Positions 13,948-34,945 of a stretch of 64,000 nt of DNA are shown piece after piece. Origin of the DNA: Nakamurella leprariae (GTDB taxonomy: Bacteria; Actinomycetota; Actinomycetes; Mycobacteriales; Nakamurellaceae); assembly GCF_016918035.1 (NCBI RefSeq), contig NZ_JAERWK010000008.1:310001-374000 (forward strand), given 5' to 3'. The number at the start of each line of letters is the position of its first letter. Within the stretch, counting starts at the first letter, position 1. Both the position numbers and the translations under genes were made by a program. The notes under the pieces were generated by a model. It searched no databases, was not told the DNA's origin, and saw only the letters and a program-made list of their open reading frames with translations.

Positions 13948-14016
13948 GGGGAGGGGTTCTCCAGGGGTGGGGTCGCGACGGGGGCCGCGAGGTCGGGAGG
14001 CGGAGGCGGACCCGGC

Positions 14017-14391
14017 TCAGGCGGTGCGGCGGGCCTGTCGGCGGGCGGCCCGCTGCTCGGCGGGGGTCGACGGGCGCGCCGGCGGCACCGCCTCGGGCAC
14101 CGGGTCCGGTCCGGCCAGCTCGGGGCCGACCATGACCACGGCGCCGGTGTGGTTGTCGATCATGGGGCGGTAGCTGGCCTGGCGGTTGACCGCCCCCTGT
14201 CGCACGTCGGCCGCGAACGAGCCGACGGCGTTGCCCAGCTCGGCGATGGCGTCCGCGACGTCGGCGGCGATCGCCGACGGTGTCAGCTTGGCCGCCATGG
14301 CCTGCCGCGCGGCCTCCTTGGCCCGCCGGGTCCGTCGCATCGACAGCGCACCACACGCGACGCCGGCCGCGAACCAGTAGCTCCGCTTCAC
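14017..14391 (-). CDS. Small DUF6167-like membrane-associated protein
   Basis: 124 residues. GTG start with GGAAGGGGA about 6 nt upstream. A short hydrophobic N-terminus (YWFAAGVACGALSM) is followed by a basic RRTRRAKEAARQ stretch and a helical region. It then has SYRPMIDNHTGAVVMVGPEL and a polar Ala/Arg-rich end. A gene of this kind commonly sits between rarA and alaS in actinobacteria. Function unknown; the family name is from position and size rather than an identified signature. Confidence 0.6.
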   Translation of the reverse strand: MKRSYWFAAGVACGALSMRRTRRAKEAARQAMAAKLTPSAIAADVADAIAELGNAVGSFAADVRQGAVNRQASYRPMIDNHTGAVVMVGPELAGPDPVPEAVPPARPSTPAEQRAARRQARRTA

Positions 14392-14608
14392 CCGCCGTGT
14401 CCCCTTCCCCGTCCGGCCGGACGGGGATCCGACGGCCGCCCCGCCTGCGGGAGGCGGTGCGGGACCGAGCGGCAGGTCCCCGACCAGCATCGATGTCGCG
14501 CCCCCGGACTCCGGCGGGGTTCCGATCGAGTCGGACGATCGCCGTCGCCGGGCGCAGGGGTGAGGGTACCCGGCGGACCGGCGACCAGTGGCTGGTCGGC
14601 AGGGCACG

Positions 14609-14628
14609 CGGCCGGTCCCCACCGGCCG
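14609..14628 (-). terminator. Hairpin after rarA
   Basis: CGGCCGGT and ACCGGCCG form an 8-bp stem with a CCCC loop, 14 nt beyond the rarA stop. There is no T-tract. A second perfect hairpin (14407-14426, CCCCGTCC-GGCC-GGACGGGG) lies just before the ribosome site of the next gene. Confidence 0.45.
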
Positions 14629-14641
14629 GCGGGCCGGACGG

Positions 14642-16165: not shown

Positions 16166-17605
16166 TCAGCGCGCCCCCGCGCCGGCCAGCACCGTGCCGT
16201 CCCCCGCTCGGGACCGCAACTCGCCGTCGAACACGATGCGGCCGCGGGCCAGCACCAGGTCGATGGCCCCGGTGACGGTGAAGCCCTCGTACGGCGTCCA
16301 CCCGGCGTTCGACTGCATGTCGGCCACGTCGACGGTCCAGCTGCGCGTCGGATCGAAGGCCACGATGTCCGCGTCGTACCCGGGGGCGATCGCCCCCTTG
16401 CGGTCCTGCAGTCCGTAGCGACGGGCTGGATTGATCGTCATCGCGGCGATCGCCGCGTCGAACGCGGCCGGCGACCGGCGGAACGCCTCGGCCAGCACCA
16501 GCGGGTAGATGGTCTGCACCCCCGGGGCGCCCGAGTGGTTGTCGAACACGTTGCGGTGCCGCTTGAACGCTTTGGGCCACGGCGCGTGGTCCGAGCTGAT
16601 CACATCGACCTGCCCGGCCTCCAGCCGCTGCCACAGCCCCTCCCGCGCGGCGGCGGTGCGCAAGGGCGGGTTGATCTTCAGCTGGGTGCCCTGGCGAACC
16701 ATGTCCTGCTCGTCGAGCAGCAGGTAGTGCGGGCAGGTCTCCATGGTGACGTCGGCCCCCTCGGCCGCCCACCGGTTCACCAGGTCGACCGACCGCGGCA
16801 GGCTGGTGTGGCACAGGTGCACCGGCGCACCCGCGGACCGAGCGATCTCCAGAGCGGTCAGCACCCCCAGGGTCTCGGCCACCGGCGGTCGACTGCGCAT
16901 GTGGGCCAACGGGTCATCGCCCTCGTCCCGCAGCTGGCCGAGCAGGTGGCGGATGATCTCATCGTTCTCGGCGTGCACGCACACCGTGGCCCGGTTGGCC
17001 GCCGCGGCGGTGAACACCTCCAGCAGGTCCCCGTCCGGGACCCGGGGGAAGCGGAACGAGTCGGTGTTGAACAGCGAGACCTTGAAGCCGGCGGCGCCGG
17101 CCGCCACCATGGCGTCCATCTCGCGCCAGCCCCCGGCGGGCAGCGCGGTCCCCAGCATCGCCATGTCGACGTGCGCCTCACGCTCGGCGAGTTCCCGCTT
17201 GACCAACCACTTCTCCCGGTCGGCGATCGGACCGGTGCCGTCGTAGGGCATCTCGACGATCGTCGTCACCCCTCCCGCGGCGGCGGCCCGCGTCGCGGCC
17301 GCGATGCCCTCGCCGCCGTGGCTCAGGCAGTGCACGTGAGCGTCGACCATGCCGGGCACCAGGTAGGCCTGTCCGGCGTCGGTCAGCCGGTCCACCGGAA
17401 CCGCCCCGGGTTCGGCGACGGCCAGGATCCGGCCGCCGGAGATGAGCACGTCGCTCAACCGCCAGCTGCCGTCCGGCCGACGCGCCCGGCCGCGGACGGC
17501 GTGCGACACGGGAGCCATCGCGACCGGCGCCACCGGAACCCCGCTCTCCACGTCGTCGGACGGTCCGTCAGCGGCTGGATCGGCGGTCGGCAGTTGCACA
17601 GTCAT
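16166..17605 (-). CDS. Cyclic amidohydrolase (allantoinase/hydantoinase family)
   Basis: 479 residues. Metal-dependent amidohydrolase that opens cyclic amide rings. Visible ligands: H90 and H92 in MVDAHVH, the likely carbamylated K175 in GFKVSLF, His in CVHAEND, His in HLCHTSLPRS and Asp in SSDHAPW. TCPHYL is typical of the hydantoinase/allantoinase/dihydroorotase group. Blocks such as GVTTIVEMPYD favour allantoinase-like over dihydropyrimidinase, but the substrate is not settled. The ATG at 17605 follows a weak purine site; the frame stays open upstream. It is divergent from the MFS gene, with a shared-operator candidate between them. Confidence 0.85.
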   Translation of the reverse strand: MTVQLPTADPAADGPSDDVESGVPVAPVAMAPVSHAVRGRARRPDGSWRLSDVLISGGRILAVAEPGAVPVDRLTDAGQAYLVPGMVDAHVHCLSHGGEGIAAATRAAAAGGVTTIVEMPYDGTGPIADREKWLVKRELAEREAHVDMAMLGTALPAGGWREMDAMVAAGAAGFKVSLFNTDSFRFPRVPDGDLLEVFTAAAANRATVCVHAENDEIIRHLLGQLRDEGDDPLAHMRSRPPVAETLGVLTALEIARSAGAPVHLCHTSLPRSVDLVNRWAAEGADVTMETCPHYLLLDEQDMVRQGTQLKINPPLRTAAAREGLWQRLEAGQVDVISSDHAPWPKAFKRHRNVFDNHSGAPGVQTIYPLVLAEAFRRSPAAFDAAIAAMTINPARRYGLQDRKGAIAPGYDADIVAFDPTRSWTVDVADMQSNAGWTPYEGFTVTGAIDLVLARGRIVFDGELRSRAGDGTVLAGAGAR

Positions 17606-17996
17606 GAACACATCCCGGGCGAGTTGGAACGGAGCGGAGCGAGCATGGGGCGGACCACCGGCGATCGACCGGTGCCGCGCGTCCGGGCAGTGCCGTCGGC
17701 GATCGACGAGCACCGGGCCCGCTGGTCATTCAAGGCCGAGAGACCCCGATGGGGAACGAGTCCCGCGCAGACGGAAACGCAACGTTGACACGGTTCCTGC
17801 GCAGCGGGAATGACGACGGCGGTCCCGCGCATTCTCGCTTCCTGAGATCGGTGTTACGCCCTTGGAACGGTTCCGGCGCCGCGGGTCGATCCACGCAGTT
17901 GCGGTGTTTCGATGACCGACAACGCTCGGACGGCTCCCCCGAACGGGGTCGAGCCGCCTGAGTGACCACCACGCTCCGCTGTCGAGAGAAGGACCG
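17606..17996. other. Divergent promoter region of hydantoinase and MFS genes
   Basis: 391 nt without a gene. It contains a TTGACA at 17785-17790 with a poor -10 (GAATGA) 17 nt later. TTCC-N9-GGAA sits across the spacer, and the operator candidate lies at 17853-17874. The TTGGAACGG half of that operator recurs at 17624-17632, close to the hydantoinase start. Confidence 0.4.
17853..17874 (-). promoter_or_regulatory. Operator candidate, site A of shared motif
   Basis: Read on the minus strand: GGAAC-C-GTTCC, 5 nt, then CGTAAC. The 11-nt inverted repeat and the 5-nt spacing match sites B and C. The distal hexamer agrees with GTTAAC only in its last four bases (TAAC). It lies 123 nt upstream of the MFS start and 248 nt upstream of the hydantoinase start. 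Confidence 0.5.
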
Positions 17997-19400
17997 TTGC
18001 CCCCGTCCCCCGAGAACCGCCAGACCGCGGCACCGACGCCGCCGGCGCCGCCGGTCGACACCGAGTCGCTCGCCACCGGCGCCGCGCTCTCAGCCACCGG
18101 GATCGACGCGCCGCCCGATCCGGATGCCGATCCACCCGGGTGGCAGCTCGACCCGGCCGTCGTCGCGGTCCAGCGCCGCACCGTCCGGCTGCTCATGCTC
18201 ACCCAGACCTTCGGCTCCTTCGGCATGGGCGCCAGCGCCTCGGTCGGCGTGCTGCTCGTGGAGGACATCGTCGCGGACGAGGCCCTGGCCGGCCTGGCCC
18301 GGACGTGCCTGACCCTCGGCGCCGCCGCGCTGGCCATCCCGTTGGCCGCCCTGGCGGTGCGACGAGGGCGGCGCATCTCGCTCGGCCTGGCCTGGGTCAT
18401 CGGCGCCGTCGGTGCGGCGCTACTCATCCTGGCCGCCCTGACCGACAGCGTCGCCCTGGTCGTCATCGGGATGGCGCTGTTCGGCTCCGGCACCGCCGCC
18501 GGTCTGCAGGCCCGCTTCTGCGCCGCCGACCTGGCCGTCCCGGCGCGTCGTGGCCAGACACTGTCCCTGGTGGTCTGGATCGGGACCCTGGGCAGCGTGG
18601 TGGGCCCGAACCTGGGCATTCCCGGCGCGTGGGTGTCCAGCATCCTCGGGCTCCCCGAACTGGCCGGCACCTTCGTCATCGCCGCGACGATGCTCGGCCT
18701 GGCCGCTCTGGTGACCCTGGTGTTCCTGCGGCCGGATCCGTTGCGCATCGCCCAGTCCCACGTCCACCACCCGGCGGGCACCGGGCAGCCGTCGCACACG
18801 CGGTCCTCCCTGCGGCACACCCTGTCGGTGATCTGGGCGCTCCCGACGGCCCGGTTCGCGCTCATCGCCGTCGTGCTGTCGCACACCAGCATGGTCAGCC
18901 TGATGACCATGACTCCGGTCCACATGGACCACAGCGGCAGCACCATCACCCTGGTCGGCCTGACCATCAGCATCCACGTCATCGGCATGTTCGCCTTCGC
19001 GCCGCTGGTGGGGCGGGCCAGCGACCGGTGGGGCCCGGTCCCGGTCATCGTGGCCGGGCAGATCATGTTCGTGCTCGCCGCCGGTGCAGCGATCGCAGCC
19101 GGGCCACACTGGTCGCCCACCGCACTGAGCCTGTTCCTGCTGGGCACCGGCTGGTCGTGCGGCACGGTGCCGGGCTCGGTGATGCTCTCGTCCAGCGTCC
19201 CCAGCGAGATCCGCACGCACACCCAAGGTGTCGTCGATGCGTCGATGAACGGTGTGGCCGCCCTGGCGGCCCTGGTGGCCGGTCCGACCTACGCCCTGGT
19301 CGGGTTCGCCGGACTCGGGGTCATGGTGCTGGCACTGGCCGCGGTCGTGCTGCTGGCCGCAGTGCGATTCACCGCCGGCCGGCGATCGGCACCCGCCTGA
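17997..19400 (+). CDS. MFS transporter, 12 predicted helices
   Basis: 467 residues from a TTG start with GAGAGAAGGA upstream. A polar Pro-rich N-terminus of about 60 residues precedes the first helix (LLMLTQTFGSFGMGASA). Twelve hydrophobic segments follow, with the basic cytoplasmic motif VRRGRRISLG between helices 2 and 3 and GRASDRWGPV in the equivalent second-half loop. The major-facilitator fold carries small solutes by proton coupling; substrate and direction cannot be told. Divergent from the cyclic amidohydrolase and next to two degraded importer genes, so it may import that enzyme's substrate. Confidence 0.82.
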   Translation: MPPSPENRQTAAPTPPAPPVDTESLATGAALSATGIDAPPDPDADPPGWQLDPAVVAVQRRTVRLLMLTQTFGSFGMGASASVGVLLVEDIVADEALAGLARTCLTLGAAALAIPLAALAVRRGRRISLGLAWVIGAVGAALLILAALTDSVALVVIGMALFGSGTAAGLQARFCAADLAVPARRGQTLSLVVWIGTLGSVVGPNLGIPGAWVSSILGLPELAGTFVIAATMLGLAALVTLVFLRPDPLRIAQSHVHHPAGTGQPSHTRSSLRHTLSVIWALPTARFALIAVVLSHTSMVSLMTMTPVHMDHSGSTITLVGLTISIHVIGMFAFAPLVGRASDRWGPVPVIVAGQIMFVLAAGAAIAAGPHWSPTALSLFLLGTGWSCGTVPGSVMLSSSVPSEIRTHTQGVVDASMNGVAALAALVAGPTYALVGFAGLGVMVLALAAVVLLAAVRFTAGRRSAPA

Positions 19401-19473
19401 GTCCGGAGTCGGCCGGATCCGGACCGATCGCTCCCTGAGGTCCCCGCCTTCCAACAGAACGGACGACACGCTC

Positions 19474-19608
19474 ATGAGCAGCCGGACGGCCACCGCTCCG
19501 GACACCGCCACCGACAGTACCGTCGCTGCATCCGAGCAGCCGCATGGCGTTCCTGCCGTCGAGTTCCGTCTTCAGCGGCCGGTCAACTTGGACGAGCTGC
19601 GCAGATGA
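19474..19608 (+). pseudogene. Short orphan N-terminal fragment
   Basis: A 44-codon frame starting MSSRTATAPDTATDS and ending VNLDELRR before TGA. It runs straight into the solute-binding-protein fragment in another frame. It looks like the N-terminus of an unidentified protein joined by deletion to that fragment. It could also be an unremarkable short frame. Confidence 0.3.
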
Positions 19609-20012
19609 TGCAGCAGATGGCGGGTGAGGCCGGCTTCCGGGTCGAGTCCGACCTGCACCATCCGGCGATGTACTACGACGCCGCCTGGCTCGAGATCCCG
19701 CTGGGGCTGACCGGCTGGGCGTCCCGACCAACCGCGTCACAGTTCCTGTCGCTGTTCACCTCGGACGCGGTGTGGAACACCGGGCGCTGGACCAACCGGG
19801 AGTTCGACGCCCTGGTCGAGCAGTACGAGTCGACGGTCGATGAGGCCGAGCGCACGGACGTGGCCAACCAGCTGGCCACCCTGGTGCGGGACGAGGTGCC
19901 GCAGATCATCGCCTCCTGGCCGCAGGTCGCGATCGCCATGACGAATTCGGTGCACGGCATGCCCGCCGACGCCTCCTCCTACGTCGAGCTGTCCGGCGCC
20001 TGGAAGGAATGA
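19599..20012 (+). pseudogene. C-terminal fragment of a family 5 (dipeptide/oligopeptide) solute-binding protein
   Basis: The frame encodes QMMQQMAGEAGFRVESD, GWASRPTASQFL, NREFDALVEQYESTVDEAER and EVPQIIASWP. This is the normal last quarter of SBP_bac_5 proteins, which hold peptides or other solutes for ABC import. Signal peptide, lipobox and about three-quarters of the protein are missing. It still overlaps the following permease remnant by ATGA, showing the ancestral operon. Confidence 0.72.
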
Positions 20013-20650
20013 GAAGAGCCGCCACCTGGTCTCGCGCCGTGCTGCGCTCTCCGGTGCCGTACTCACTGGTCACCCTGGTGCTGGTGTCGATCGGCATCGT
20101 CGTGCTCGCCCAGGTGCTGCCCGGCGACATCGGCCGGACGACCCTGGGGCCGTAGGCATCGCCGGACCAGGTGGCGGCCCTGAACACCGACCTCGGCCTG
20201 GACCGACCGGTCTAGGAGCGCTACCTGGAATGGCGCGGTGGCTTCGTCACCGGCCGACTGCAGCGCGTCGCCGGTGCTGGGTGTCCCGGTCGTCGGCGTA
20301 CTGCTCGACGCGCTGGGCAAGTCGCCGGCTCTGGCCCTGGTCGCCTTCGTGATCAGCGCCCCGGTGGCCCGGTGGAGCTGGGCACCTGGGTCGTTCGGCG
20401 GCCGGGCAGCCAGGTGGACCACGCCGTCAACCTGCTCAGCGTCGGCGCCAGACGAACACCGGACATCGTCGGTGGTGTCGTGCTCATCGCGCGCTTCACG
20501 GTGAGCACTGCGGATCGTCCCGTCCTGCCGAGCCTGGCGGTGGCGCCGACCGTTGTCGGGTACCTGGTCCGCATCGTCCGGGCCAGGTACCCGCAACGTG
20601 GTGGAGTCCGACTCCATCCGCACGGCGCTTCAATTCCCCGAACCCGGAAC
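20009..20650 (+). pseudogene. Degraded ABC permease (DppB/OppB type)
   Basis: Starts MRRAATWSRAVLRSPVPYSLVTL-like, with a first membrane helix and VLAQVLPGDIGR. In-frame TAG codons at 20153-20155 and 20213-20215 interrupt SPDQVAALNTDLGLDRPV. Homology then continues in other frames: VLLDALGKSPALALVAFVIS (frame 0), DHAVNLLSVG and VVGYLVRIVRA (frame 2), and NVVESDSIRTAL (frame 0). At least two nonsense and three frameshift changes, with an internal deletion. The 20651-20841 stretch after it has no recognisable homology. Confidence 0.75.
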
Positions 20651-20841
20651 CCACCACCCCTCAGGAAGCGGTGACCCGATGAACCTCGTGCCCACCGACA
20701 CCAGTGAGCCGGTGCCGTCGGCCGGTGCCGTCGGCCGGCGCCACCGCATCGGTGCCCCCCAGCGGATGCAGCCGGGACGACCCAGCTCGACCGACTCCCG
20801 TCGCTGTCGGCCGACCGGTTCGGTCCTCACCGCCGCGACAA

Positions 20842-20877
20842 CGCCGCCCGGCTCCCGGGGTGGGGAGCCGGGCGGCG
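20842..20877 (-). terminator. Strong hairpin after the ABC operon
   Basis: CGCCGCCCGGCTCCC (20842-20856) pairs perfectly with GGGAGCCGGGCGGCG (20863-20877) over a 6-nt loop. It starts 22 nt past the stop of the solute-binding protein on the minus strand. No T-run, as is common in GC-rich actinobacteria. Confidence 0.75.
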
Positions 20878-20899
20878 CCGGCGGTGCACAGGTTCGGGC

Positions 20900-22084
20900 T
20901 CAGCCGGTGAAGACCTTCTTGAACAGGTCCATGGCCCAGGTGCTGTAGTCGGCGTACTCGGCGAACGGCGGGCTGGGATTCACGGTGATCTCGGACAGCG
21001 GCGGCTGACCCGGCACCGCCGGGGCGCCCGGCATCAGGCCCGGCTGCCCCTGCGCGGCGATGAGGGTCTGCGCCTCCGGGGTCAGCCACCAGGACGTCAG
21101 CAGGTCCGAGGCGATGGCGTTGGGAGCGTTCTTGACCGTGCCGCGATAGAAGACGCCGTCACTGACGCCGTCCTCGAACTTGGCCACGAACCCGACCGGC
21201 AGGTCGTCGACGGCCAGGAACGCCTCGCCGCGGATGTAGTTGCCCAGGCCCAGCGCGATCTGGCCGGTCGAGACCGCCGTGAAGACATCGCGTTCCGACG
21301 GCAGGATGACCGGCTCGTTGGCCTTGAACTCGTCCAGCCAGGACTCCTCCAGCTTGCCGTCGTGGATGGCCGCGGCGACGAAGCCGGTGGCTCCGGCCGC
21401 CGGATCACCCATGCCGATCCGGCCCTTCCACTTCGGGTCGAGCAGCTCCTCGAAGGAGGTGGGCACCTCGTCGGCGGACACCTCGTCGGTGTTGTAGCTG
21501 AGCGTGTACAGGTAGGTGTTCCCACCGAACAGCGTGTCCCCGGCCGGCTTGTACTCCTCGGGCAGGTCGGCCGCCAGCAGCGGCTGTTGCTCGGCCAGGT
21601 AGTCGTTGTCGGTCAGGTACACCGCGTCCGCGCCGGACACGCTGACGTTGTCGGCGACGTACTGCCCGGTGGTCTGCTCGCTGGCGACCCGGTTCTGCAG
21701 TTCGGCGCCGAAGATGGTGACGTGGTCGACGGTGATCTCCGGGTACCGGGCGCTGAACGCCTCGTACAGCGACGCGGAGCTCGTCGCGGTGACGCCGTAG
21801 ACGGTGATCGTCGTCTGCCCGGCGTCCACCGCCTGCTGGTACAGACCGTCGAGGAACTCGGCGTTCTCCTGCCCGCCCAGCGCCTCCAGGGCGGCGTCGT
21901 CGAAGGTCGCCGTGGCATCGGCCGGGCCGCTGCCGGTGCCCCCGGCCGCCGCGGTCGGCTCGGACGAGCCGCAGGCGGCCATGGCCAGCAGGGCGACGCC
22001 GGACAGCGCCAGCACCGCTCGGGTCCTGGCCCGCCGGTGCGGCGATCGGGTGCGCGGTGTTCGGACGAGCGGTGGACGGATCAT
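20900..22084 (-). CDS. ABC transporter solute-binding lipoprotein, iron/thiamine/phosphonate class
   Basis: 394 residues. ATG with GGAG 8 nt upstream. Basic n-region, hydrophobic core and lipobox LLAMAACGSS place it on the outer face of the membrane. The mature part has EFLDGLYQQAVDAGQTTITVYG, FSARYPEITVDHV, LYTLSYNTDEV, FEELLDPKWKGRIGMGDP and GLMPG. This order is typical of the AfuA/FbpA and 2-aminoethylphosphonate-type binding proteins. No obvious ferric-iron tyrosine pair could be assigned, so an organic or phosphonate ligand is as likely as iron. Third gene of the minus-strand importer operon. Confidence 0.83.
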   Translation of the reverse strand: MIRPPLVRTPRTRSPHRRARTRAVLALSGVALLAMAACGSSEPTAAAGGTGSGPADATATFDDAALEALGGQENAEFLDGLYQQAVDAGQTTITVYGVTATSSASLYEAFSARYPEITVDHVTIFGAELQNRVASEQTTGQYVADNVSVSGADAVYLTDNDYLAEQQPLLAADLPEEYKPAGDTLFGGNTYLYTLSYNTDEVSADEVPTSFEELLDPKWKGRIGMGDPAAGATGFVAAAIHDGKLEESWLDEFKANEPVILPSERDVFTAVSTGQIALGLGNYIRGEAFLAVDDLPVGFVAKFEDGVSDGVFYRGTVKNAPNAIASDLLTSWWLTPEAQTLIAAQGQPGLMPGAPAVPGQPPLSEITVNPSPPFAEYADYSTWAMDLFKKVFTG

Positions 22085-22194
22085 GAGGGTCTCCAGGGTG
22101 GGAACGGACGCGACGCATCGCCGCGTGGGGCCGGCACCCGATCGGGATGCCGGTGCGGTGGACGGGCGGACGCCGGAATCCCGACGCCGCCGGC

Positions 22195-23310
22195 TCAGGA
22201 GGTGAAGACCGCGACCGCCTCCGGCGGCAGGGTCACCGACAGCGAGGCTCCGGGCGGCAGGGTCGGCGCGGCGACGCCGGAGAAGGTGCGGGCCAGCACG
22301 TGGGCGCTGCCGACGGCCATCCGGTACTGGACGCCCTCGCCGAGGAACGTCGACTGGACCACCCGCCCGGTCGAAGTGTTCGGTGGCACGTCCCCGGGTG
22401 CCCCCGCACCCGCGACCATCACGGCTCCGGCCCGGATGCCCACCGTCACCGCTGCGCCGGCCGGCACGGTCTCGGGGTGCACCGCCGACAGCACCGTCTT
22501 CAGCGAGGGCACGTCGACGGCCAGCACACTGCCGCTGCCGGTCCCGGACCGTACGAGCCCGCGGACGGTGCCCTCGAACAGGTTCTCCACCCCGAGGAAC
22601 CGCGCCACCTCCGCGTTCACCGGGCGGCTCATCACCGCGGCCGGGGTGTCGAGCTGCACCATGATCCCGCCGAGCATCACGGCGATCCGGTCGGACAGCG
22701 CGAACGCCTCGGACTGGTCGTGGGTGACGTAGATCGACGTCTGCCCGTCCGAGCGGACCCGCTGGATCTCGTCCCGCATGGAGATGCGCAACTGCGCGTC
22801 CAGGTTGGACAACGGCTCGTCGAAGAGCAGCACCTTGGGGTCGGCGACCATGGCCCGCGCCAGTGCCACCCGCTGCTGTTGCCCACCGGACAGCGCGGTG
22901 GCCGACCGGCGGGCGGCGTGGACCAGCCCCACGATCTCCAGCGAGTCCAGCACCCGCTGCCGCACCTCGATGACGCCGACGCCCTGACGCCGCAACGGGA
23001 AGGCGACGTTGTCGAACACGCTCATGTGCGGCCAGATGGCGTAGCTCTGGAACACCATGCCCAGCGACCGCTTGTTCGGCGGCACCTCGATGCCGTCCGC
23101 CACCGACGTGACCACGGTGTCGCCGATCCGGATGGTGCCGCCGTCGGGTGGTTCCAGGCCGGCGATGGCGCGCAGGGTGGTCGTCTTGCCGCACCCGCTG
23201 GGGCCGAGCAGCGTGAGGAACTCCCCCTCGCGCACGGTCAGGTCGAGTGCGTCGAGCACGGTGGCGTCGCCGTACCGCTTGGTCAGTTCATGGATGACGA
23301 TGCCGGACAC
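22195..23310 (-). CDS. ABC importer ATPase with C-terminal TOBE domain (FbpC/PotA type)
   Basis: 371 residues from GTG 23310. Walker A GPSGCGKTT near residue 40, Q-loop in VFQSYAIWPHMS, signature LSGGQQQRVALARAM, Walker B VLLFDEPLSNLD, H-loop YVTHDQSEAF. A C-terminal regulatory TOBE region (from about residue 240) has AEVARFLGVENLFEGTV and AAVTVGIRAGAV. It powers the adjacent fused permease. The order permease, ATPase, binding protein on one strand indicates a complete importer. Confidence 0.9.
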   Translation of the reverse strand: MSGIVIHELTKRYGDATVLDALDLTVREGEFLTLLGPSGCGKTTTLRAIAGLEPPDGGTIRIGDTVVTSVADGIEVPPNKRSLGMVFQSYAIWPHMSVFDNVAFPLRRQGVGVIEVRQRVLDSLEIVGLVHAARRSATALSGGQQQRVALARAMVADPKVLLFDEPLSNLDAQLRISMRDEIQRVRSDGQTSIYVTHDQSEAFALSDRIAVMLGGIMVQLDTPAAVMSRPVNAEVARFLGVENLFEGTVRGLVRSGTGSGSVLAVDVPSLKTVLSAVHPETVPAGAAVTVGIRAGAVMVAGAGAPGDVPPNTSTGRVVQSTFLGEGVQYRMAVGSAHVLARTFSGVAAPTLPPGASLSVTLPPEAVAVFTS

Positions 23311-23376
23311 TGGGTCTCCGTTCGCAGGACTGGGACGGCGCCAGGGCACGGCGCGGGCGGGCACAGGATCCGGGCG

Positions 23377-25206
23377 TCACTTCAGCGCCGGTTCGCGTTC
23401 GGGCAGCTCGTCGGGCGACGGCGGGACCACCGGCAGGAGCGCCCCGGTGACCACCGCCTCGGGCGACTCGAGCCGGATGGCGGTGCGACGGTCGAGCAGC
23501 CGGGTCACCAGCCGGCGCCCGAGCACGCTGAGCGCGAACAGCACCAGCACCGTGACCAACAGGACGCAGAAGATGGCGGCCGCCATCGGGGCGGCGCTGT
23601 CCACGTAGTACTTGAAGGCCAGACCGGAGATCGTGGTCACCTTGGTGTTGCCCAGCAGCAACGGAATCTCCAGGTTGCCGGCGATGGCCAGGCCGGTGAC
23701 GAACCAGCCCGAGATGAAGCTCGGCGCGATCAGCGGGATGAGGATGCTGGTGAAGGTCCGCACCGGGCCGGCTCCGCCGATCCGGGCGGCGTCGATCAGC
23801 TGGCGGTCGATCTGCAGGATCGAGTTCTCCAGGAACCGGATGGCGATGGGCAGACTGGCGATGACCAGGGCGATCATCATCGCCGTCGCGGTCCCGTAGA
23901 TCGGATGCAGGGCCGGGATGGCCAGCAACGTCCCGAGCAGGGCCAACGACCCGACCAGACCTGGTGTCGCCCAGGGGATCCAGGTCGGGACCTCCAGGGC
24001 GCGCTTCCACCTCGTGGGCCGGACCCGCAGCGCCGCGGTGATGACCGCCCCGATGACGACGGTGACGAAGCCGCCGACGACCATGAAGAGCACGGTGTTG
24101 CCGATGGCCGAGACGGTGACCGGGCTGTCCAGCAGTTTGCTGTAGTTGCGCCAGGAGAACGAGTCGTACCGGCCGAACACGGTGTTGAAGGAACTCAGCA
24201 CCAGTTGCACGGTCGGCAGCACGAACGCCAGCAGCGCGAAGAGCACGATGGCGACGTCGAAGAGCCAGCCGATCCGCGGGAAGGACCATGCCGCCCCCCG
24301 CGTCGACTTGCCACCCACGGTGGTGTAGTCCCGGCCGCGCAACAGCCTCATCTGGGCCCAGACCAGGAACGCCAGCAGTGCCACCATGCCCAGGGCCAGG
24401 CTGGCTGCCGCCGCGTAGTTGGCGGGGAAGTTCGTGACGTAGCCGTAGATCTCGGTGGAGAACACCCGGATGCCGGCCTGCGTCCCGATGATCTGCGGCG
24501 TGTCGAAGGCCTGCAGGCTGCTGATGAAGCCGATGAGCAACGACCCCGCGATGGCCGGGCTCAGCAACGGCAGATAGATCCGGAAGAAACTGCCGGCCCG
24601 GCTCGCGCCGAAGACCTCGGCCGCCTCCTCCAGCGAACGGTTCATCGCCATGGACGGGCCGATGAGCAGGAAGTACGAGAACGCCGACAGCTTGATGCTC
24701 ATCACGAAGATGAGCCCCGGCCAGGAGCTCACCGAGAACACCGACTCGTCGGACCCGGTCAGCGCACTCCAGACCTTGTTGACCAGACCGACGTTGTCCG
24801 CGCCGAGCATGGCCCAGCTCAACGCGAAGAACAGCACCGGCGTCGCCAGGATGACGACCATCATCGGCGTGATCAGCCGGCGCAACCGCGTGGTGGTCCG
24901 GGTGGCCACGAAGACGAAGAACAGGGCCAGCAGCGTGCCGCCGACGGAGGACCCCACTGCGAAGATCATCGAGTCCATCAGCGGCTTGGCCAGGTCGGAT
25001 TCGGTGAAGGCCGTGACGATGCCGTCGAGCGTCCACTCGCCCGGCAGGCCGGGCAGGGCGGTGCGGAAGGCCATCACCACCAGCGTCACGAACGGCACCA
25101 CGAAGGCACCCACGATGCCGACGGTCAGCGCGATCCAGGGCAGGGCCTTGAGCCATGCCCGACCGGACATGATGCGCCGGCCACGGGTCGACGTCGATGC
25201 GCTCAT
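23377..25206 (-). CDS. Fused ABC permease (two BPD_transp_1 halves, FbpB type)
   Basis: 609 residues with about 12 membrane helices. Both halves carry the EAA-type coupling loop: EEAAEVFGASRAGSFFRIYLP in the first half, DAARIGGAGPVRTFTSILIP in the second. One polypeptide thus supplies both membrane subunits, as in FbpB-type iron and related importers. ATG 25206 gives MSASTSTRGRR; an internal ATG at GRRIMSGRAW is possible. First gene of the operon, 213 nt downstream of operator candidate B. Confidence 0.9.
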   Translation of the reverse strand: MSASTSTRGRRIMSGRAWLKALPWIALTVGIVGAFVVPFVTLVVMAFRTALPGLPGEWTLDGIVTAFTESDLAKPLMDSMIFAVGSSVGGTLLALFFVFVATRTTTRLRRLITPMMVVILATPVLFFALSWAMLGADNVGLVNKVWSALTGSDESVFSVSSWPGLIFVMSIKLSAFSYFLLIGPSMAMNRSLEEAAEVFGASRAGSFFRIYLPLLSPAIAGSLLIGFISSLQAFDTPQIIGTQAGIRVFSTEIYGYVTNFPANYAAAASLALGMVALLAFLVWAQMRLLRGRDYTTVGGKSTRGAAWSFPRIGWLFDVAIVLFALLAFVLPTVQLVLSSFNTVFGRYDSFSWRNYSKLLDSPVTVSAIGNTVLFMVVGGFVTVVIGAVITAALRVRPTRWKRALEVPTWIPWATPGLVGSLALLGTLLAIPALHPIYGTATAMMIALVIASLPIAIRFLENSILQIDRQLIDAARIGGAGPVRTFTSILIPLIAPSFISGWFVTGLAIAGNLEIPLLLGNTKVTTISGLAFKYYVDSAAPMAAAIFCVLLVTVLVLFALSVLGRRLVTRLLDRRTAIRLESPEAVVTGALLPVVPPSPDELPEREPALK

Positions 25207-25547
25207 GGTGCTCCTGGTGATCCTGGAGGGCGGGACCGAGGCGGGCTGGCGGGCCGTGCGACTCGGCGAACTGGGACGGCCGGTCGGCACGGCCGCCGAG
25301 CGGGACGGCCCGCGATCGGTGCGTCGCGGTGAGCGGGCCGACAGCGGCGACGGTGCCGGCCGGATCCTGCTCGGGCCCGACCGTACGCCCGGACCGTTCC
25401 GGCCGACAGGTTTGACGACGGAACGTTCCGCGGGGTTAACCTGACTCTCACCATCTGAGAACCGGTTGGCCGGGACCGATGTCGGCGAGGGCCGATGTCA
25501 GTACCAGGCACGACGACGACGGCGCGGTCGCGGTCATCGCCATCGGA
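25207..25547. other. Promoter region of the ABC importer operon
   Basis: 341 nt with no gene. It holds operator candidate B (25420-25440) and a near-copy of its palindrome, GGACCGTTCC, at 25391-25400, 29 nt away. AACCGGTT lies at 25460-25467. I could not pick a convincing -10/-35 pair. Confidence 0.4.
25420..25440 (+). promoter_or_regulatory. Operator candidate, site B of shared motif
   Basis: GGAACGTTCC (part of the 12-nt palindrome CGGAACGTTCCG), then 5 nt, then GTTAAC (within GGTTAACC). It lies upstream of the ABC importer operon and matches site C at 13 of the 16 positions from GTTCC to GTTAAC. Confidence 0.6.
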
Positions 25548-26855
25548 TCAGAACTCCTGCAGGTTCTCCCGGAAGGTGGCGTGTGGGTAGCCCGTCCGGA
25601 CGACACCGCGACGGCGCAGCTCGGGGATGAGCCGGTCGACGATGCTGGCCATGTACTCCGGCTGGATGTGGGCGCCGAACAGGAATCCGTCACCGCCGAC
25701 CTCCTGCATGATCTCCTCCATCTGGCCGGCGACGGACTTGACGGTCCCGATCATCGGGAAGCCCATGATGCCCGGACTCGTCTTCGAGGCCAGCACCTCT
25801 CGCAGGGTGGCACCCGGCTTCGCGGTCGACAGGAACTCGCGCAGCGAACTCTGCGAGCCGTTCGTGGTGAGCTCCGGCATCGGCGCGTCGATGTCGATCC
25901 TGGAGAAGTCGATCCCGGTGATGTTGGAGATGCCGGCCAGCTGGCCGTCCAGATCGGCGGCGCGGTGCCGGGCCCGCGTGTCGGCGGTCGCCTGCGCCTC
26001 CGAGTCGGTGTTGCCCAGGATCGCCCCGGTCGCGAACATGACCTTGACGGTGTCGGGGTCCCGGCCCACCGACCTCGCGTGCTCCTTGACGTCCTGGTAG
26101 TAGTCCTTCATGTCCTCGACGGACGTGCAGCTGGCGATGATCACCTCGACGTTCTTGGCCGCGAACTGCCGACCGCGCGGCGACCCGCCCGCCTGGAACA
26201 GCACCGGCGTGCCCTGCGGACCCGCCGGCGCGTTGAGCGGCCCGCGCGACGAGAAGAACTTGCCTTCGTAGTTGATCGGCTTGACGTCCTTGGCCGTGTA
26301 GGCGATGTTGCGCTCCGCGTCGAACACGGCGGCGCTGGCCGGGAACGAGGCCCACAGCTGCTTGGTGATCTCGACGAACTCGTCGGCCAGGTCGTACCGC
26401 ATGTCGTGCTCGGGCTGCTGCAGACCGTAGTTCGACCAGGCGAGCTGGGTGGTCGCGGTGACGATGTTCCAGCCGATCCGACCCTTGGTCAGGTGGTCGA
26501 GGGTGGTCATCAGCCGCGCCAGCAGCCACGGGTGGTAGAAGCCGGTGGTCAGGGTCGGCACGATGCCGATGTGCTTGGTGGCCATGGCCAGGTACGGGAC
26601 GAGCGGGACGGGGTCCAGCTTCGGCGCCATGATGCCGCGGTTCAGGTAGAACTCGGGATTGCCACCGAACGCCTCCGGGACCATCGACGAGTCCTCGAGG
26701 ATCATGAAGTCGAATCCGCCCCGTTCGAGCGTGCGGATGGCGTCCTGGAACTGGTCCGGCTGCCAGGGTTCGTACCCGACACCGGACCCCGGCGCGTTCC
26801 AGCCGTTCAGACTGAAGCCGGCCCCGTTGAACCAGCCGAGGTGGAAGAGGCTCAT
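25548..26855 (-). CDS. NtaA/SnaA/DszA-family FMN-dependent monooxygenase (luciferase-like)
   Basis: 435 residues. Bacterial-luciferase fold of the two-component monooxygenase A subunits, which use reduced FMN from a separate reductase to oxygenate and often cleave C-N or C-S bonds. Characteristic blocks: MSLFHLGWFNGAG, LERGGFDFMILEDSSM, TGFYHPWLLARLMTTLDHLT, GRIGWNIVTA, NYGL, DEFVEITKQLW, FFSSRGPLN, PVLFQAGGSPRGRQFAAK. No reductase gene is nearby, so a general flavin reductase would be needed. ATG 26855 matches the family N-terminus. Divergent from ubiD; operator candidate C lies between them. Confidence 0.88.
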   Translation of the reverse strand: MSLFHLGWFNGAGFSLNGWNAPGSGVGYEPWQPDQFQDAIRTLERGGFDFMILEDSSMVPEAFGGNPEFYLNRGIMAPKLDPVPLVPYLAMATKHIGIVPTLTTGFYHPWLLARLMTTLDHLTKGRIGWNIVTATTQLAWSNYGLQQPEHDMRYDLADEFVEITKQLWASFPASAAVFDAERNIAYTAKDVKPINYEGKFFSSRGPLNAPAGPQGTPVLFQAGGSPRGRQFAAKNVEVIIASCTSVEDMKDYYQDVKEHARSVGRDPDTVKVMFATGAILGNTDSEAQATADTRARHRAADLDGQLAGISNITGIDFSRIDIDAPMPELTTNGSQSSLREFLSTAKPGATLREVLASKTSPGIMGFPMIGTVKSVAGQMEEIMQEVGGDGFLFGAHIQPEYMASIVDRLIPELRRRGVVRTGYPHATFRENLQEF

Positions 26856-27366
26856 GTGCCCAACTGCCTTTCTGAGAATGAATGGGGCCCGGCGGGCGGG
26901 TCGGAGCGCTCGGCGCGGCCGGGAATCGGCCGGCACGATCCGGCTCTCGCACGGATCGCGAGCGGTGCGCTGCTGAACGCGCACCTGATGTCCCGGTTCA
27001 TGCAAACACCCACGCGGCACGCCGGACACCGGTCGGGCCGGAACTGTTCCACAGCGTTAACAGCATTCTCGATCGACGGGAGTGGGTGCACTGCGAACAG
27101 GGCAAACACTGCCGCCGCTGTGCGTCCGCACGTCGACCGGGGGACCTGAACAGGCCCGCGGGGCGGCTGCACCGGGTCCGCTCGACCCCGCGGACCTGGT
27201 GCGACGTCGATCAGCACCGCACAATGACGGCGTTCCGGCCGCGGATCGAGAATGCGTCACCCCTCGCGCCGGCTCGGATCCCCTCGTTCGTCCGGTCGTC
27301 ACCGTCGCCGCCGGAACCACCGTCCTGGCCCGCTGCCGGGACCATGTCCTCGCCCGGAGGTGCCCG
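26856..27366. other. Divergent control region between flavin monooxygenase and ubiD
   Basis: 511 nt without a supported gene. The open frames here are extensions of ubiD or of shadows. It contains operator candidate C at 27040-27061. The ubiD leader would be long if transcription starts near that site. Confidence 0.4.
27040..27061 (+). promoter_or_regulatory. Operator candidate, site C of shared motif
   Basis: GGAAC-T-GTTCC, 5 nt, then GTTAAC. It sits 185 nt upstream of the monooxygenase start (minus strand) and 306 nt upstream of ubiD (plus strand). It has the same arrangement and spacing as site B. Confidence 0.6.
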
Positions 27367-28749
27367 TTGTCCAGTGAGCCGCCCTCGTTGCGGACCTTCC
27401 TGGCGGAGATGGCCGCGTGCGACCAGGTCGTCACCATCACCGACCCGGTGACGCCGGAATTCGAGATCGCCTCGTACCTGGTCCATCTGGATCCCGGTCC
27501 GGTGGTGCGGTTCGACCACGTCGAGCATCCGGGCGCCGTCGTGCAGGCCGTGGTGGGCAACGTGCTGGGCAGCCTGGACCGGGTCGCCGCGGCGATGGGC
27601 GTTCCCAGGGACCGGATCCAGACGGCGCTGTTGGAGGCCATCGCCGCACCCGGCGCACTGCACGAGGTCACCGACGCGCCCGTGCAGGAGCGCTCCGGCC
27701 CGCTGGACTGGGCGGACCTGCCGGTTCCCACCTTCTTCGAGCGCGAGCAGGGGCCTTACCTGACCGCCGGGGTCATCATCGCCCGCGACCCGATCACCGG
27801 ACGCGGCAACGCCTCCTTCGCCCGCGTGCGGCCACTCCCGGACGGCCGGGCCCTGGTGGGGATCGCACCGAACCACCACCTCAACCAGATGGCCCGGCGC
27901 GCCCCGGACGGCCGCCTGCCGATCGCGGTGGTGCTGGGCGCGCACCCCGCCGTCCAGCTCGCCGCCTGCCTCTACCTCGGGCTGGGCCAGGACGAACTGA
28001 CCTACGCATCGCCGTTGCTGGGTCAGCCGCTGCGCGTGACCCGGTGCAGCACGGTCGATCTGCTGGTCCCCGCGGACGCCGAGATCGTGCTGGAGGGCGT
28101 CCTGGACGTGACCGCGACGGTCGTGGAGGGCGAGGTCTCGGAGTACCACGGCATGTACGAGGACTACGGCCCGGCGGCCACCGCGGAGCTGTCCACCTGG
28201 ACCTCCCGCGCCGACCCACTGCTGCAGGTGATCCTGCCGGGCTGGCACCGGGAGCACGCCTACCTGGGCGCGGTGCCGATCGCCGCCGGGCTGCGCGCCG
28301 CCGTGGCCCGGACGGTCCCCACCGTGGGCGAGATCGCCGTCACCGAGGCCGGTTCGGGTCGGCTCGCCGCCGCGGTGCAGGTGGCGGACCCGCGGCCCGG
28401 GCAGGCCAAGCAGGTCATGGCCGCCTGCTGGGGCACTCTGAGCATGCTGAAGCAGGTGACCGTGGTGGACACCGACATCGACGTGTGGGACCCGATCGCC
28501 GTGGAGTGGGCCCGGATCTCGCGGTGCCGGATCGACCGCGACCTGGTGCTGCTGCCCGACGCCCGTACCGACCGGTCCGAGCCGCTGGAGTCCGGCGGCA
28601 CGGTCACCAAGGTCGGCTACGACGCGCTGGCCCGCCCCGGGGACCGGGTGGAGGGCTGGGAGCGGGCCCGGCCGCCGGCCCACGTGGTGGCCGAGGTCGG
28701 GCGGCGGCTGGCCCGCACGACCGCCGACCGGAACGGAGACCGACGATGA
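27367..28749 (+). CDS. UbiD-family prenylated-FMN-dependent decarboxylase
   Basis: 460 residues. TTG start chosen because GGAGG lies 6 nt upstream and SLRTFLAEM follows, as in the family. Reversible decarboxylation of aromatic or alpha,beta-unsaturated acids using prenylated FMN. Typical blocks: NASFARVRPL near the cofactor-binding Arg, NHHLNQMARRA, PIAVVLGAHPAVQLAA, VEGEVSEYHGMYEDYGPA with the acidic catalytic residues, QVILPGWHREHAYLGA, and VVDTDIDVWDP. It is divergent from UbiD of ubiquinone synthesis, fitting a catabolic decarboxylase. First gene of a four-gene operon whose last gene supplies the cofactor. Confidence 0.88.
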   Translation: MSSEPPSLRTFLAEMAACDQVVTITDPVTPEFEIASYLVHLDPGPVVRFDHVEHPGAVVQAVVGNVLGSLDRVAAAMGVPRDRIQTALLEAIAAPGALHEVTDAPVQERSGPLDWADLPVPTFFEREQGPYLTAGVIIARDPITGRGNASFARVRPLPDGRALVGIAPNHHLNQMARRAPDGRLPIAVVLGAHPAVQLAACLYLGLGQDELTYASPLLGQPLRVTRCSTVDLLVPADAEIVLEGVLDVTATVVEGEVSEYHGMYEDYGPAATAELSTWTSRADPLLQVILPGWHREHAYLGAVPIAAGLRAAVARTVPTVGEIAVTEAGSGRLAAAVQVADPRPGQAKQVMAACWGTLSMLKQVTVVDTDIDVWDPIAVEWARISRCRIDRDLVLLPDARTDRSEPLESGGTVTKVGYDALARPGDRVEGWERARPPAHVVAEVGRRLARTTADRNGDRR

Positions 28750-29549
28750 CCACCCTCGGCCGGGGCCTGGACGTGCTCTCGCACATCGCCACCAACGGTC
28801 CGACCACCGCCGACGACATCGCCGCCGCCGTCGGGCTGCCGCTCAGCACCACCTACCGCTACATCACGGCGCTGCGGACCGGCGGGTACGTGGCCGACTA
28901 CGAGGGCCACTTCGACCTCGGGGTGCAGGCGCTGCGGATGCTGCGGCCCGAGGCGCTGCACCGCTGCCTGGCGTCGATCTGCGGGCCGGTCATGTTCGAC
29001 CTGGTCGCGGCGACCCAGGAGACCGCACTGCTCACCGTCCGGGACGGGTGGAGCGCCACCTGCATCGAGCTGGTGGAACCGCGCCGCGCCGTGAGGTTCT
29101 CGTTCCGGCGCGGGGTGTCGCTGTCGCTGCACAAGGGCGCGTCGGCCAAACCGCTGCTCGCGTTCCAGGACCCGGTGTTCATCCGCCGGTACCTGGACGC
29201 CCGGGTGAGCTGGATCGAGGACCAGGACCCGGAGGCGGTGTGGAACGACCTCACCGAGGTCCGGTCCCGCGGATTCGCGGTCACCGTGTCCGAACTCGAC
29301 TCCGGCAGCGTCGGGGTCGGCGTCCCGGTGTTCTGGGACGGCGAGGTCGGCGCGTGCGTCAGCGTCGCCGGGCCGGCGGTCCGGATGGGAGAACGACGCA
29401 TCCGGGAGATCGTCGGCCGGGTGCGCGACGCCGCGGTCGAGCTGGGCACCTTGCTGTCCGCCGAACCGGCGGGTTCCGGCCCGAACGGCACCCCCGACGC
29501 GGCAGCTCGCCGCGTCGGTCCGTCTCTGCTCTCGCAGGAAGTGGGATGA
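28746..29549 (+). CDS. IclR-family transcriptional regulator
   Basis: 267 residues, ATGA overlap with ubiD. Winged-helix N-terminus: GLDVLSHIATNGPTTADDIAAAVGLPLSTTYRYITALRTGGYV (residues about 6-50). The C-terminal effector domain has ETALLTVRDGWSATCIE, SLSLHKGASAKPLLAF, RGFAVTVSELDSGSVGVGVPVF and a final CVSVAGPAVRM. IclR proteins bind short inverted repeats and respond to small aromatic acids or purine/allantoin metabolites. Being inside the operon, it is the natural candidate for binding the GGAAC/GTTCC sites A-C. Confidence 0.88.
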   Translation: MTTLGRGLDVLSHIATNGPTTADDIAAAVGLPLSTTYRYITALRTGGYVADYEGHFDLGVQALRMLRPEALHRCLASICGPVMFDLVAATQETALLTVRDGWSATCIELVEPRRAVRFSFRRGVSLSLHKGASAKPLLAFQDPVFIRRYLDARVSWIEDQDPEAVWNDLTEVRSRGFAVTVSELDSGSVGVGVPVFWDGEVGACVSVAGPAVRMGERRIREIVGRVRDAAVELGTLLSAEPAGSGPNGTPDAAARRVGPSLLSQEVG

Positions 29550-30838
29550 GCACCATGTCCGAGCAGTCCGGAACCGATCTCGACCAGTTCCGTCCGGTGC
29601 TCGACCGGCTCGGCGGTGCGCTCGAGGAGCTGGCCGGCTACGTCGACCCGGACCACGGCGGGTGGACTCGTCGCGTCCTGAGCGAGCCCTACACCGCCTC
29701 CCGGTCCTGGGTGCGGGACGCCATGCGGGACGCGGGCCTGACCGTCCACGTCGACGAGGCCGGCAACACCATCGGTGTGCTGCCGGGCCGGCGCGGGTCC
29801 GGGCCGGCCCTGGCCACCGGGTCGCACACCGACACGGTGGCCAACGGCGGGCGCTTCGACGGGGTGGCCGGGGTGGTCGGGGCACTCGAGGTGGTGCACC
29901 GGCTGCGGGAGACCGACACCCGCCTGGACTCCGACCTGATGGTCATCGACTTCCTCGGGGAGGAACCCAACGAGTTCGGCGTGAGCTGCATCGGGAGCCG
30001 AGCCATCGCCGGCACCGTCTCCCGGGACTACCTGGACCACGAGCGCGACGATGGGCTGAGCCTCGGCTCGGCGCTGCAGCAGCGGGGCATGGACCCGAGC
30101 ACGGTGATGGACATGGCCTGGGCGCCCGGCCGGATCAGCGCCTTCGTCGAGCTGCACATCGAGCAGGGCCCGGTGCTGGAACGGGTCGGTACCCAGATCG
30201 GGGTGGTCACGGCGATCGCCGGCATCGAGCGGGTCATCGCCACCTTCCTGGGGCGGGCCGACCACGCCGGCACGGCGGCCATGGCCGATCGCAAGGACGC
30301 CCTGGTGGCGGCGGCCGAGGCGGTCCTGGCCGTCGAACAGATCGGCTGCGCGGGCGAGCAGGCCACCGGAGCGGCAGTGAGCACCGTCGGCCGGCTCGAG
30401 GTGGAGCCCGGTGCGCTCAACGTGGTGCCGTCCCTGGCCCGGTTGTGGACCGAGCTGCGCAGTCCGGACCCCGGCTGGCTGGGAACCGCGCGGCGCGACG
30501 TCGTGGAACAGTTCAAGCTGATCGCCGAGCACCGTCGGCTCGAGCTGGACCTGGACTGGCTCAACGACCAGGATCCGGTGCCCACCGCCCCGTCGATGCA
30601 GGACGTCATCGCCGTCACCGCCGACCACCTCGGGTACAGCTGGCGGGCCATGCCCAGCGGCGCCGGTCACGACAGCGCCCACATCGCCGCGATGGCGCCG
30701 ACCGGGATGATCTTCGTGCCGTCGCGCGACGGGCGCAGCCACTGCCCCGAGGAGTGGACGGACCTGGCCGACCTCGGCCGCGGTGTGCACGCCCTGGCCG
30801 CGACCCTGGTCCGGCTCGACCGGCGGGGCTCGGCATGA
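29546..30838 (+). CDS. M20-family Zn hydrolase (N-carbamoyl-amino-acid hydrolase / allantoate amidohydrolase type)
   Basis: 430 residues, ATGA overlap with the IclR gene. Metal ligands in order: His in ATGSHTDTV, Asp in GGRFDGVAGVVGAL, Glu in DFLGEEPNEFG, His in LHIEQGPVLE, and the final His in SGAGHDSAH. The dimerisation lid has GRADHAGTAAM. The family removes carbamoyl or amidino groups from linear ureido compounds, the products of hydantoinase or allantoinase. It fits a partnership with the cyclic amidohydrolase at 16166 although 12 kb away; exact substrate unknown. Confidence 0.87.
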   Translation: MSTMSEQSGTDLDQFRPVLDRLGGALEELAGYVDPDHGGWTRRVLSEPYTASRSWVRDAMRDAGLTVHVDEAGNTIGVLPGRRGSGPALATGSHTDTVANGGRFDGVAGVVGALEVVHRLRETDTRLDSDLMVIDFLGEEPNEFGVSCIGSRAIAGTVSRDYLDHERDDGLSLGSALQQRGMDPSTVMDMAWAPGRISAFVELHIEQGPVLERVGTQIGVVTAIAGIERVIATFLGRADHAGTAAMADRKDALVAAAEAVLAVEQIGCAGEQATGAAVSTVGRLEVEPGALNVVPSLARLWTELRSPDPGWLGTARRDVVEQFKLIAEHRRLELDLDWLNDQDPVPTAPSMQDVIAVTADHLGYSWRAMPSGAGHDSAHIAAMAPTGMIFVPSRDGRSHCPEEWTDLADLGRGVHALAATLVRLDRRGSA

Positions 30839-31452
30839 CCGGCACGCCCGCGCTCCCCCGCCTGATCGTGGGCATCTCGGGAGCCTCTGGTGCCGTGTAC
30901 GGGATCCGCCTGCTGGAGGTGCTGCGCCGGTACGGGCTGGCCGAGAGTCACCTGCTGGTCAGCCGGTCCGGCCGCGCCACGATCACCATGGAGACGGACC
31001 GGACGGTGACGGAGGTCGCCGCGCTGGCCGACGTCCGATACGACAACGCCGACATGACGGCGGCCATCGCCAGCGGCTCGTTCCGGGTGGCGGGCATGGT
31101 GCTCGCGCCGTGCAGCATCAAGACGCTGTCCGGGATCGCCAACAGCTACGACGACACGCTGATGGTCCGCGCCGCGGACGTCTGTCTCAAGGAGCGGCGT
31201 CCGGTCGTCGCGCTGCTGCGGGAGACCCCGCTGCACCGCGGGCATCTGCGCATCATGAGCGAGGCGGCCGAGGCGGGAGTGATCATCATGCCGCCGGTGC
31301 CGGCGTTCTACACCCGTCCGCAGACGCTGGACGACATCATCGACCACACCGTCGCGCGGACGCTGGACCACTTCGGACTTGATCTGCCGGGCATCCCCCG
31401 CTGGGGTGAGCCGGCCCCTGATGCCGCACAGAACGGAGCAGCCCGGTCCTGA
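30835..31452 (+). CDS. UbiX-family flavin prenyltransferase
   Basis: 205 residues, ATGA overlap with the M20 gene. Prenylates FMN with dimethylallyl phosphate to give the UbiD cofactor. Seen: IVGISGASGAVYGIRLLE (flavin-binding N-terminus), the SRSG loop, LAPCSIKTLSGIANSYDDTLMVRAADV, and VALLRETPLHRGHL followed by IIMPPVPAFYTRP. Presence in the same operon as ubiD shows the decarboxylase is prFMN-dependent. The stop codon lies in the loop of the terminator. Confidence 0.92.
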   Translation: MTGTPALPRLIVGISGASGAVYGIRLLEVLRRYGLAESHLLVSRSGRATITMETDRTVTEVAALADVRYDNADMTAAIASGSFRVAGMVLAPCSIKTLSGIANSYDDTLMVRAADVCLKERRPVVALLRETPLHRGHLRIMSEAAEAGVIIMPPVPAFYTRPQTLDDIIDHTVARTLDHFGLDLPGIPRWGEPAPDAAQNGAARS

Positions 31453-34846: not shown

Positions 34847-34883
34847 GAACTGAAGACTCCTCGTGAGGTGGAACCAGTGAGCA

Positions 34884-34923: not shown

Positions 34924-34945
34924 GTGGTGCTGCGGAACCGGAGCG

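Follow-up and report, generated by a model that had tools for sequence, protein, structure and literature searches.

A four-box composite motif in three control regions of a Nakamurella leprariae gene cluster and a probable local IclR-type regulon

In a 64,000-nucleotide (nt) stretch of the Nakamurella leprariae genome (contig NZ_JAERWK010000008.1, positions 310,001 to 374,000; called the window here), a short inverted repeat recurs in front of separate transcription units of an uncharacterised catabolic gene cluster. Are these sites copies of one operator and, if so, which protein would read it? A first-pass annotation had placed three such sites in the control regions of a hydantoinase/transporter pair, an ATP-binding cassette (ABC) importer and a flavin monooxygenase/ubiD pair, and had suggested that an IclR-family regulator encoded next to ubiD binds them. 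The genome-wide rarity of the motif, its non-coding placement and independent gene-content evidence together give good support to a single shared operator that marks one regulon; this regulon is probably local and of the IclR type.

The composite motif and its rarity

The full composite, 5'-GAGA-N5-GTTA(AC/CG)-N5-GGAAC-N(0/1)-GTTCCG-3' (31-32 bp), was found at all three sites:

Site A, 17844..17875, plus strand: between hyd and mfs, pointing at mfs; codon score -0.13/-0.11
Site B, 25419..25449, minus strand: upstream of the ABC importer genes, pointing at the permease gene; codon score -0.07
Site C, 27039..27070, minus strand: between the divergent llm and ubiD genes, pointing at llm; codon score -0.04/0.09

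The sites lay at the coordinates and on the strands that the first-pass annotation had given. Its description of the palindrome, with a gap of 0 or 1 nt, agreed with the measured gaps of 1 (A), 0 (B) and 1 (C). The interval of exactly 5 nt between the palindrome and GTTAAC (or CGTAAC) was likewise the same in all three, and a recount from GTTCC to GTTAAC again gave 13 of 16 identical positions between sites B and C. The motif is larger than had been described. A fourth element, GAGA, read on the other strand, stands exactly 5 nt before GTTA in 3/3 sites, and on the opposite flank identity extends to GTTCCG in all of them. Four identical columns arose by chance in 0.08% (12-nt flank), 0.19% (20 nt) or 0.68% (60 nt) of 100,000 random triples, two flanks having been inspected. 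GAGA, TTAAC and GGAAC start 10 bp apart in sites B and C. A one-mismatch copy of the palindrome, GGACCGTTCC (25391..25400, strand not assigned), lies 29 bp from site B, centre to centre, and is possibly a weak second site; no one-mismatch copy with a gap of 0-1 was found near sites A and C.

The whole genome (4,472,446 bases, 39 contigs) was scanned on both strands. The composite pattern, which was written post hoc from the three sites, had three copies in these 4.47 Mb, all inside 9.2 kb of the window, and the reversed-pattern control had none. The first-pass annotation had asked whether matches would be scattered over coding DNA, and for the composite they were not. The palindrome GGAAC(N0-1)GTTCC occurs at 20 places, 17 of them outside the cluster. 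At the density of those 17, three palindromes in 9.2 kb have a probability of about 7e-6. An exact third box (SKTAAC at +5) accompanies the three cluster palindromes and no other. Codon scores class the cluster sites as non-coding, with values no higher than the 2% quantile of coding DNA (0.09). The 17 outside palindromes divided into 12 coding (above the 5% quantile, 0.17), four borderline (0.11-0.15) and one non-coding (-0.04).

A 25-column search also recovered the motif without being given it, at a width chosen with the sites in view. The best triple in the three control regions (391, 377 and 511 nt) consisted of exactly these sites, with a score of 59.7 that beat 200/200 Markov simulations. 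A gapped 31-column model derived from the motif, with the GTTCCG block and an optional 1-nt gap, again ranked these sites first (82.7). This score was reached by 0/92 control triples of real DNA (maximum 73.3, mean 59.9), the 92 being those that finished computing.

Relaxed searches of the genome, with up to three mismatches, gave more matches than their controls. With a gap of 0, six matches to the composite (two of them sites B and C) compared with one in the control; with a gap of 1, there were 29 (three being the cluster sites) versus 7; and GAGA-N5-GTTAAC-N5-GGAAC gave 43 (three being the cluster sites) versus 11. All four two-mismatch matches outside the cluster (contigs C36, C25, C31 and C16) read as coding and were rejected. 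Among the minority of outside three-mismatch matches that were scored, two were non-coding. One non-coding three-mismatch composite lies on contig C7 near 23320, directly upstream of the first gene of a tandem monooxygenase array, with its GAGA misspaced. The sole non-coding palindrome outside the cluster, C15:29175, has a third box three letters off. We treat C15:29175 and C7:23320 as weak leads only.

Genes of the cluster and their linkage elsewhere

The genes around the sites are listed below. Starts called by eye are marked as such, and the limits of the operons are predicted.

hyd, 16166..17605, minus strand: cyclic amidohydrolase of the hydantoinase/allantoinase type; start ATG 17605 picked by eye
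mfs, 17997..19400, plus strand: major facilitator superfamily (MFS) transporter; 17997 is the earliest possible start and the true start may be later
sbp, 20900..22198, minus strand: ABC solute-binding protein (SBP_bac_6); scanned stretch, start not set
abcA, 22195..23364, minus strand: ABC ATPase with a TOBE domain; start not set
abcP, 23377..25170, minus strand: ABC permease with two BPD_transp_1 stretches; start ATG 25170 picked by eye
llm, 25548..26855, minus strand: NtaA/DmoA family flavin mononucleotide (FMN)-dependent monooxygenase (383.7 bits, cut-off 279.7); start ATG 26855 by eye
ubiD, 27367..28749, plus strand: UbiD family decarboxylase; probable TTG start at 27367 after GGAGG, by eye
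iclR, 28746..29549, plus strand: IclR family regulator; its ATG overlaps the ubiD stop (ATGA)
M20 amidase gene, 29561..30838, plus strand: NCBIfam equivalog N-carbamyl-L-glutamate amidohydrolase ErtE; start not set
ubiX, 30862..31452, plus strand: UbiX family flavin prenyltransferase (243.1 bits, cut-off 188); start not set

Around site C, ubiD, iclR, the M20 amidase gene and ubiX run divergently from llm. At E<=1e-100 the NtaA/DmoA-type monooxygenase has 15 matches in the genome (contigs C1, C7, C13, C25, C27, C29, C31 and C32), four of them in tandem on contig C7, where one has two in-frame TGA codons.

A scan of 397 genomes of the order, including this genome and 16 congeners, found the composite in five: three copies here and one in each of four others, with no match to the reversed control in any genome. 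None of the four single copies has GAGA, and two of them, the two checked for coding, lie inside a long open reading frame (ORF). The 16 congeners had neither the composite nor a monooxygenase at E<=1e-100. The monooxygenase at E<=1e-150 was found in 1/397 genomes sampled from the order. UbiD was found in 1/394 genomes of the class at E<=1e-110 and in 1/396 of the phylum at E<=1e-95, in both cases this genome. Among the matches listed in these searches, three candidates were scored per genome, and the genomes were a sample of larger groups; weaker relatives, or relatives outside the samples, may exist.

Part of the gene set recurs in Rhodococcus yunnanensis, the one genome among 37 of its genus with the monooxygenase at E<=1e-150. 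There, abcP-abcA-sbp-llm stand in a row as one operon (63, 57, 66 and 70% identity), and the importer and the monooxygenase are the only cluster genes in the stretch read. UbiD had no match in R. yunnanensis at E<=1e-20, an empty result that alone is not proof of absence.

Another part of the set was found on plasmids. Plasmid records with a UbiD match at E<=1e-50 numbered 11. The stretch around UbiD was compared in every one, and 10/11 held homologues of both the hydantoinase and the M20 enzyme; UbiX was also present in 10/11. Seven of these plasmids are close relatives from Agrobacterium/Allorhizobium, which reduces the lineages carrying hydantoinase and M20 to about four (Agrobacterium/Allorhizobium, R. 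jaguaris, Ensifer and Thalassospira). The R. tropici plasmid stretch has neither of these two enzymes and carries a distant monooxygenase homologue. The ten alphaproteobacterial plasmids with both enzymes thus combine UbiD with a hydantoinase and an enzyme of the N-carbamoyl amidase type. No IclR homologue was found in the 11 stretches, and the regulators next to UbiD are of the LysR type where annotated. The plasmid gene content therefore indicates that genes grouped by the motif are also grouped elsewhere, under other regulators; like the R. yunnanensis operon, this linkage is independent of the motif.

The surroundings of the cluster were also read. After it, on the minus strand at 32254-36490, the window encodes an aldehyde dehydrogenase, a 3-hydroxyisobutyrate dehydrogenase (298.6 bits, cut-off 291.6) and an MFS symporter with a 31% homologue beside the Ensifer hydantoinase; a search of this segment found no copy of the motif. 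The cluster is flanked by alaS- and rarA-like genes (11272-16111) and an aspS-like gene (43279-45102). The housekeeping genes alaS, rarA and aspS are often near one another in actinobacteria, and the position of the cluster between them would fit an acquired island.

IclR as the candidate regulator and its rivals

The iclR product has the domains PF09339 HTH_IclR (41.5 bits, cut-off 22) and PF01614 IclR_C (80.2 bits, cut-off 24), and no other kind of regulator domain was found among the cluster ORFs scanned. We consider it probable, though by no means secure, that this protein (28746-29549) binds all three sites as copies of a single operator, and that they define a local regulon. As the likeliest binder, the protein is the best, unproven, inference from sequence. 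The first-pass proposal of a single regulator for all three sites holds well for the common operator and as an inference for IclR itself. Its comparison with IclR-type inverted repeats fared unevenly. In PMC8222616, IclR half-sites are given as RYGRAAC and GTTYCRY, and three-box alternating sites are described. Box 1 matches RYGRAAC at 7/7 positions in B and C and 6/7 in A, and box 2 matches GTTYCRY at 7/7 in B and 6/7 in A and C; the spacings and distances are atypical, as set out below.

If IclR is the regulator, a dimer of dimers could read the boxes GAGA, GTTA, GGAAC and inverted GTTCC. GGAAC/GTTCC would take one inverted pair of DNA-binding domains, and GTTA and GAGA, each about one helical turn further, would take the others. 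Site A would then control mfs and hyd, site B the ABC importer, and site C the monooxygenase gene and ubiD-iclR-M20-ubiX, hence IclR itself. The signal might be the substrate or a pathway intermediate. The sites lie 138-313 nt from predicted starts and, for the genes in whose direction they are oriented, 138-264 nt upstream. At such distances activation, or repression of a promoter with a long leader, would be likelier than a block at the start codon. BhcR is an example from PMC11323563 showing that IclR-type proteins can act as activators. The cluster protein scored 105.6 against the BhcR model (cut-off 350) and 72.7 against the PcaR/PcaU model (cut-off 284.75); because it is this distant from both, no effector can be named. 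The genes may serve to break down a cyclic ureide or a compound of the hydantoin type, with hydrolysis of an N-carbamoyl amino acid as the last step.

Several results weigh against this assignment. The palindrome occurs three times in the window versus 0.07 expected, which 0/100 shuffles reached, and other 5-nt half-sites were equally or more enriched (TCGAC 4, GTCGA 3, GGTGA 3, each with 0.10 expected); because such half-sites do as well or better, the palindrome alone proves little and was dropped as proof. The ungapped 25-column score of 59.7 was reached by 11/200 random triples of real DNA, and the sites had already been seen when the pattern, both column widths (25 and 31) and the gap position were fixed. 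The R. yunnanensis operon stretch lacks the motif, both by eye in the upstream region and by matrix. Among the genomes searched, no relative turned up that carries every gene of the set and could show conservation of the motif. Box 3 matches GTTYCRY at 6/7 positions in site A only, with 4/7 in B and 3/7 in C. The sites have GRAAC-N0/1-GTTYC and GTT-10-AAC, compared with N3-4 and GTT-11-AAC in the published geometry, and fit neither the group 1 nor the group 2 box spacing given in PMC8222616. According to the same text, most IclR sites have their centres between -20 and -80, and positions of -300 to -400 are very rare, which makes the distances of our sites unusually long.

The alternatives, in descending order, are a different regulator, an extracytoplasmic function (ECF) promoter and chance. 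It is unlikely, although less so than the other two, that the sites are one real operator for a protein encoded elsewhere, such as a LacI-type repressor or a response regulator reading 10-bp direct repeats. The 10-bp steps in B and C fit the second of these, since such a layout is also used by response regulators. The core GGAACGTTCC lies inside the Streptomyces CebR2 palindrome TGGGAACGTTCCCA and within a CelR-related site of Acidothermus (PMC9953190, PMC3377646). Compared with the 14-bp CebR2 palindrome as given there, our sites differ in their flanks, CC..AA (A), AC..GC (B) and CC..AC (C), and in the 1-nt gap of 2/3 sites. A LacI palindrome also leaves GTTA and GAGA unexplained, and of a global regulator one would expect strict sites in greater number than three. 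The cluster ORFs scanned contained neither a LacI nor a response-regulator domain, in a survey that did not extend to regulators in the rest of the genome. A GlnR-like box, considered from the TTAAC-N5-GGAAC layout, was set aside for its period of 10 and its mere three sites; the GlnR box has a period of 11.

It is improbable that mfs, abcP and llm are instead driven by ECF sigma-factor promoters with GGAAC as the -35 element, all further similarity being secondary. The GGAAC boxes do point at these genes, with GTC after 16, 17 and 18 nt, and two of the Streptomyces sigma-E promoters listed in PMC6767563 have GGAACGTTCC, with CGTC 17 nt after GGAAC. The sites instead have GGTC after 15 nt (A), TGTC after 16 (B) and TGTC after 17 (C). 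Thus CGTC is absent from all three, the spacing varies and equals that of the two promoters in site C alone. GGAAC-N15-19-GTC is moreover frequent in the window (23 versus 14.0 expected; 1/100 shuffles as high), and a sigma factor leaves the conserved GAGA, GTTA and GTTCCG unexplained. Chance, with a motif picked post hoc from three GC-rich intergenic regions, is the least probable of all: the enrichment of other palindromes, the real-DNA triples at 25 columns and the late choice of widths and gap speak for it, but the 31-column score lies above every control, the composite is rare and co-located, and GAGA was outside the motif originally picked, yet is common to all three sites.

The cluster now has a testable regulon definition, which ties its separate transcription units together in a single proposed pathway. 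Binding by IclR would broaden the box spacings known for this family. In distant bacteria, the recurrent association of UbiD with hydantoinase and N-carbamoyl amidase suggests that UbiD takes part in the breakdown of cyclic ureides, in a role so far unassigned. More tentatively, and doubtful as a whole, a four-box, 31-bp non-canonical IclR operator could govern an undescribed route in which the flavin monooxygenase and prenyl-FMN UbiD prepare a cyclic ureide, perhaps related to ergothioneine or hydantoin-propionate breakdown, for the hydantoinase and the N-carbamoyl amidase. Our literature search found no paper combining UbiD, UbiX and hydantoinase, none combining ergothioneine, hydantoinase and catabolism, and none on a role of UbiD beside a hydantoinase or N-carbamoyl amidase; one paper mentions thiourocanate together with ergothioneine, and the core GGAACGTTCC appears in 12.

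Comparison with known systems

Among enzymes, the nearest likeness is to the ergothioneine-utilisation (Ert) set in NCBIfam models. The M20 enzyme passes the ErtE model narrowly (525.1 bits, cut-off 520), and the best matches of the hydantoinase are two ErtD models. In contrast to Ert enzymes, the cluster hydantoinase falls below both ErtD cut-offs (392.6/650 and 386.3/600), and the cluster has a flavin monooxygenase and UbiD. Neither thiourocanate hydratase nor thiohydantoin desulfurase was recognised among the 16 window proteins compared with NCBIfam, the rest of the genome not having been searched. From the full set (ErtD and ErtE above cut-off, hydratase and desulfurase), ErtE alone passes in the cluster. 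All three hydantoinases tested from plasmid UbiD loci (Thalassospira, A. vitis CG78 and Ensifer) exceed the ErtD cut-off, and the Thalassospira locus also has the hydratase and the desulfurase above cut-off.

The operator looks real and of a known kind. Like two of the Streptomyces ECF sigma-E promoters (PMC6767563), the sites have GGAAC followed by GTTCC, and site C shares their GTC distance; unlike these promoters, they are without CGTC, are unequally spaced and have extra conserved boxes. They contain GGAACGTTCC like the LacI-type CebR2/CelR sites (PMC9953190, PMC3377646), which in contrast are simple even 14-bp palindromes without a third or fourth box, and no LacI gene lies among the cluster ORFs scanned. 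The three-box IclR operators (PcaU, PobR, HmgR and 32 predicted groups; PMC8222616) differ from the sites here in that ours have the extra GAGA, the gap of 0-1, GTT-10-AAC and a long distance to starts. What the two have in common is alternating boxes, RYGRAAC/GTTYCRY half-sites, an IclR gene beside the regulated genes and a small, local catabolic regulon.

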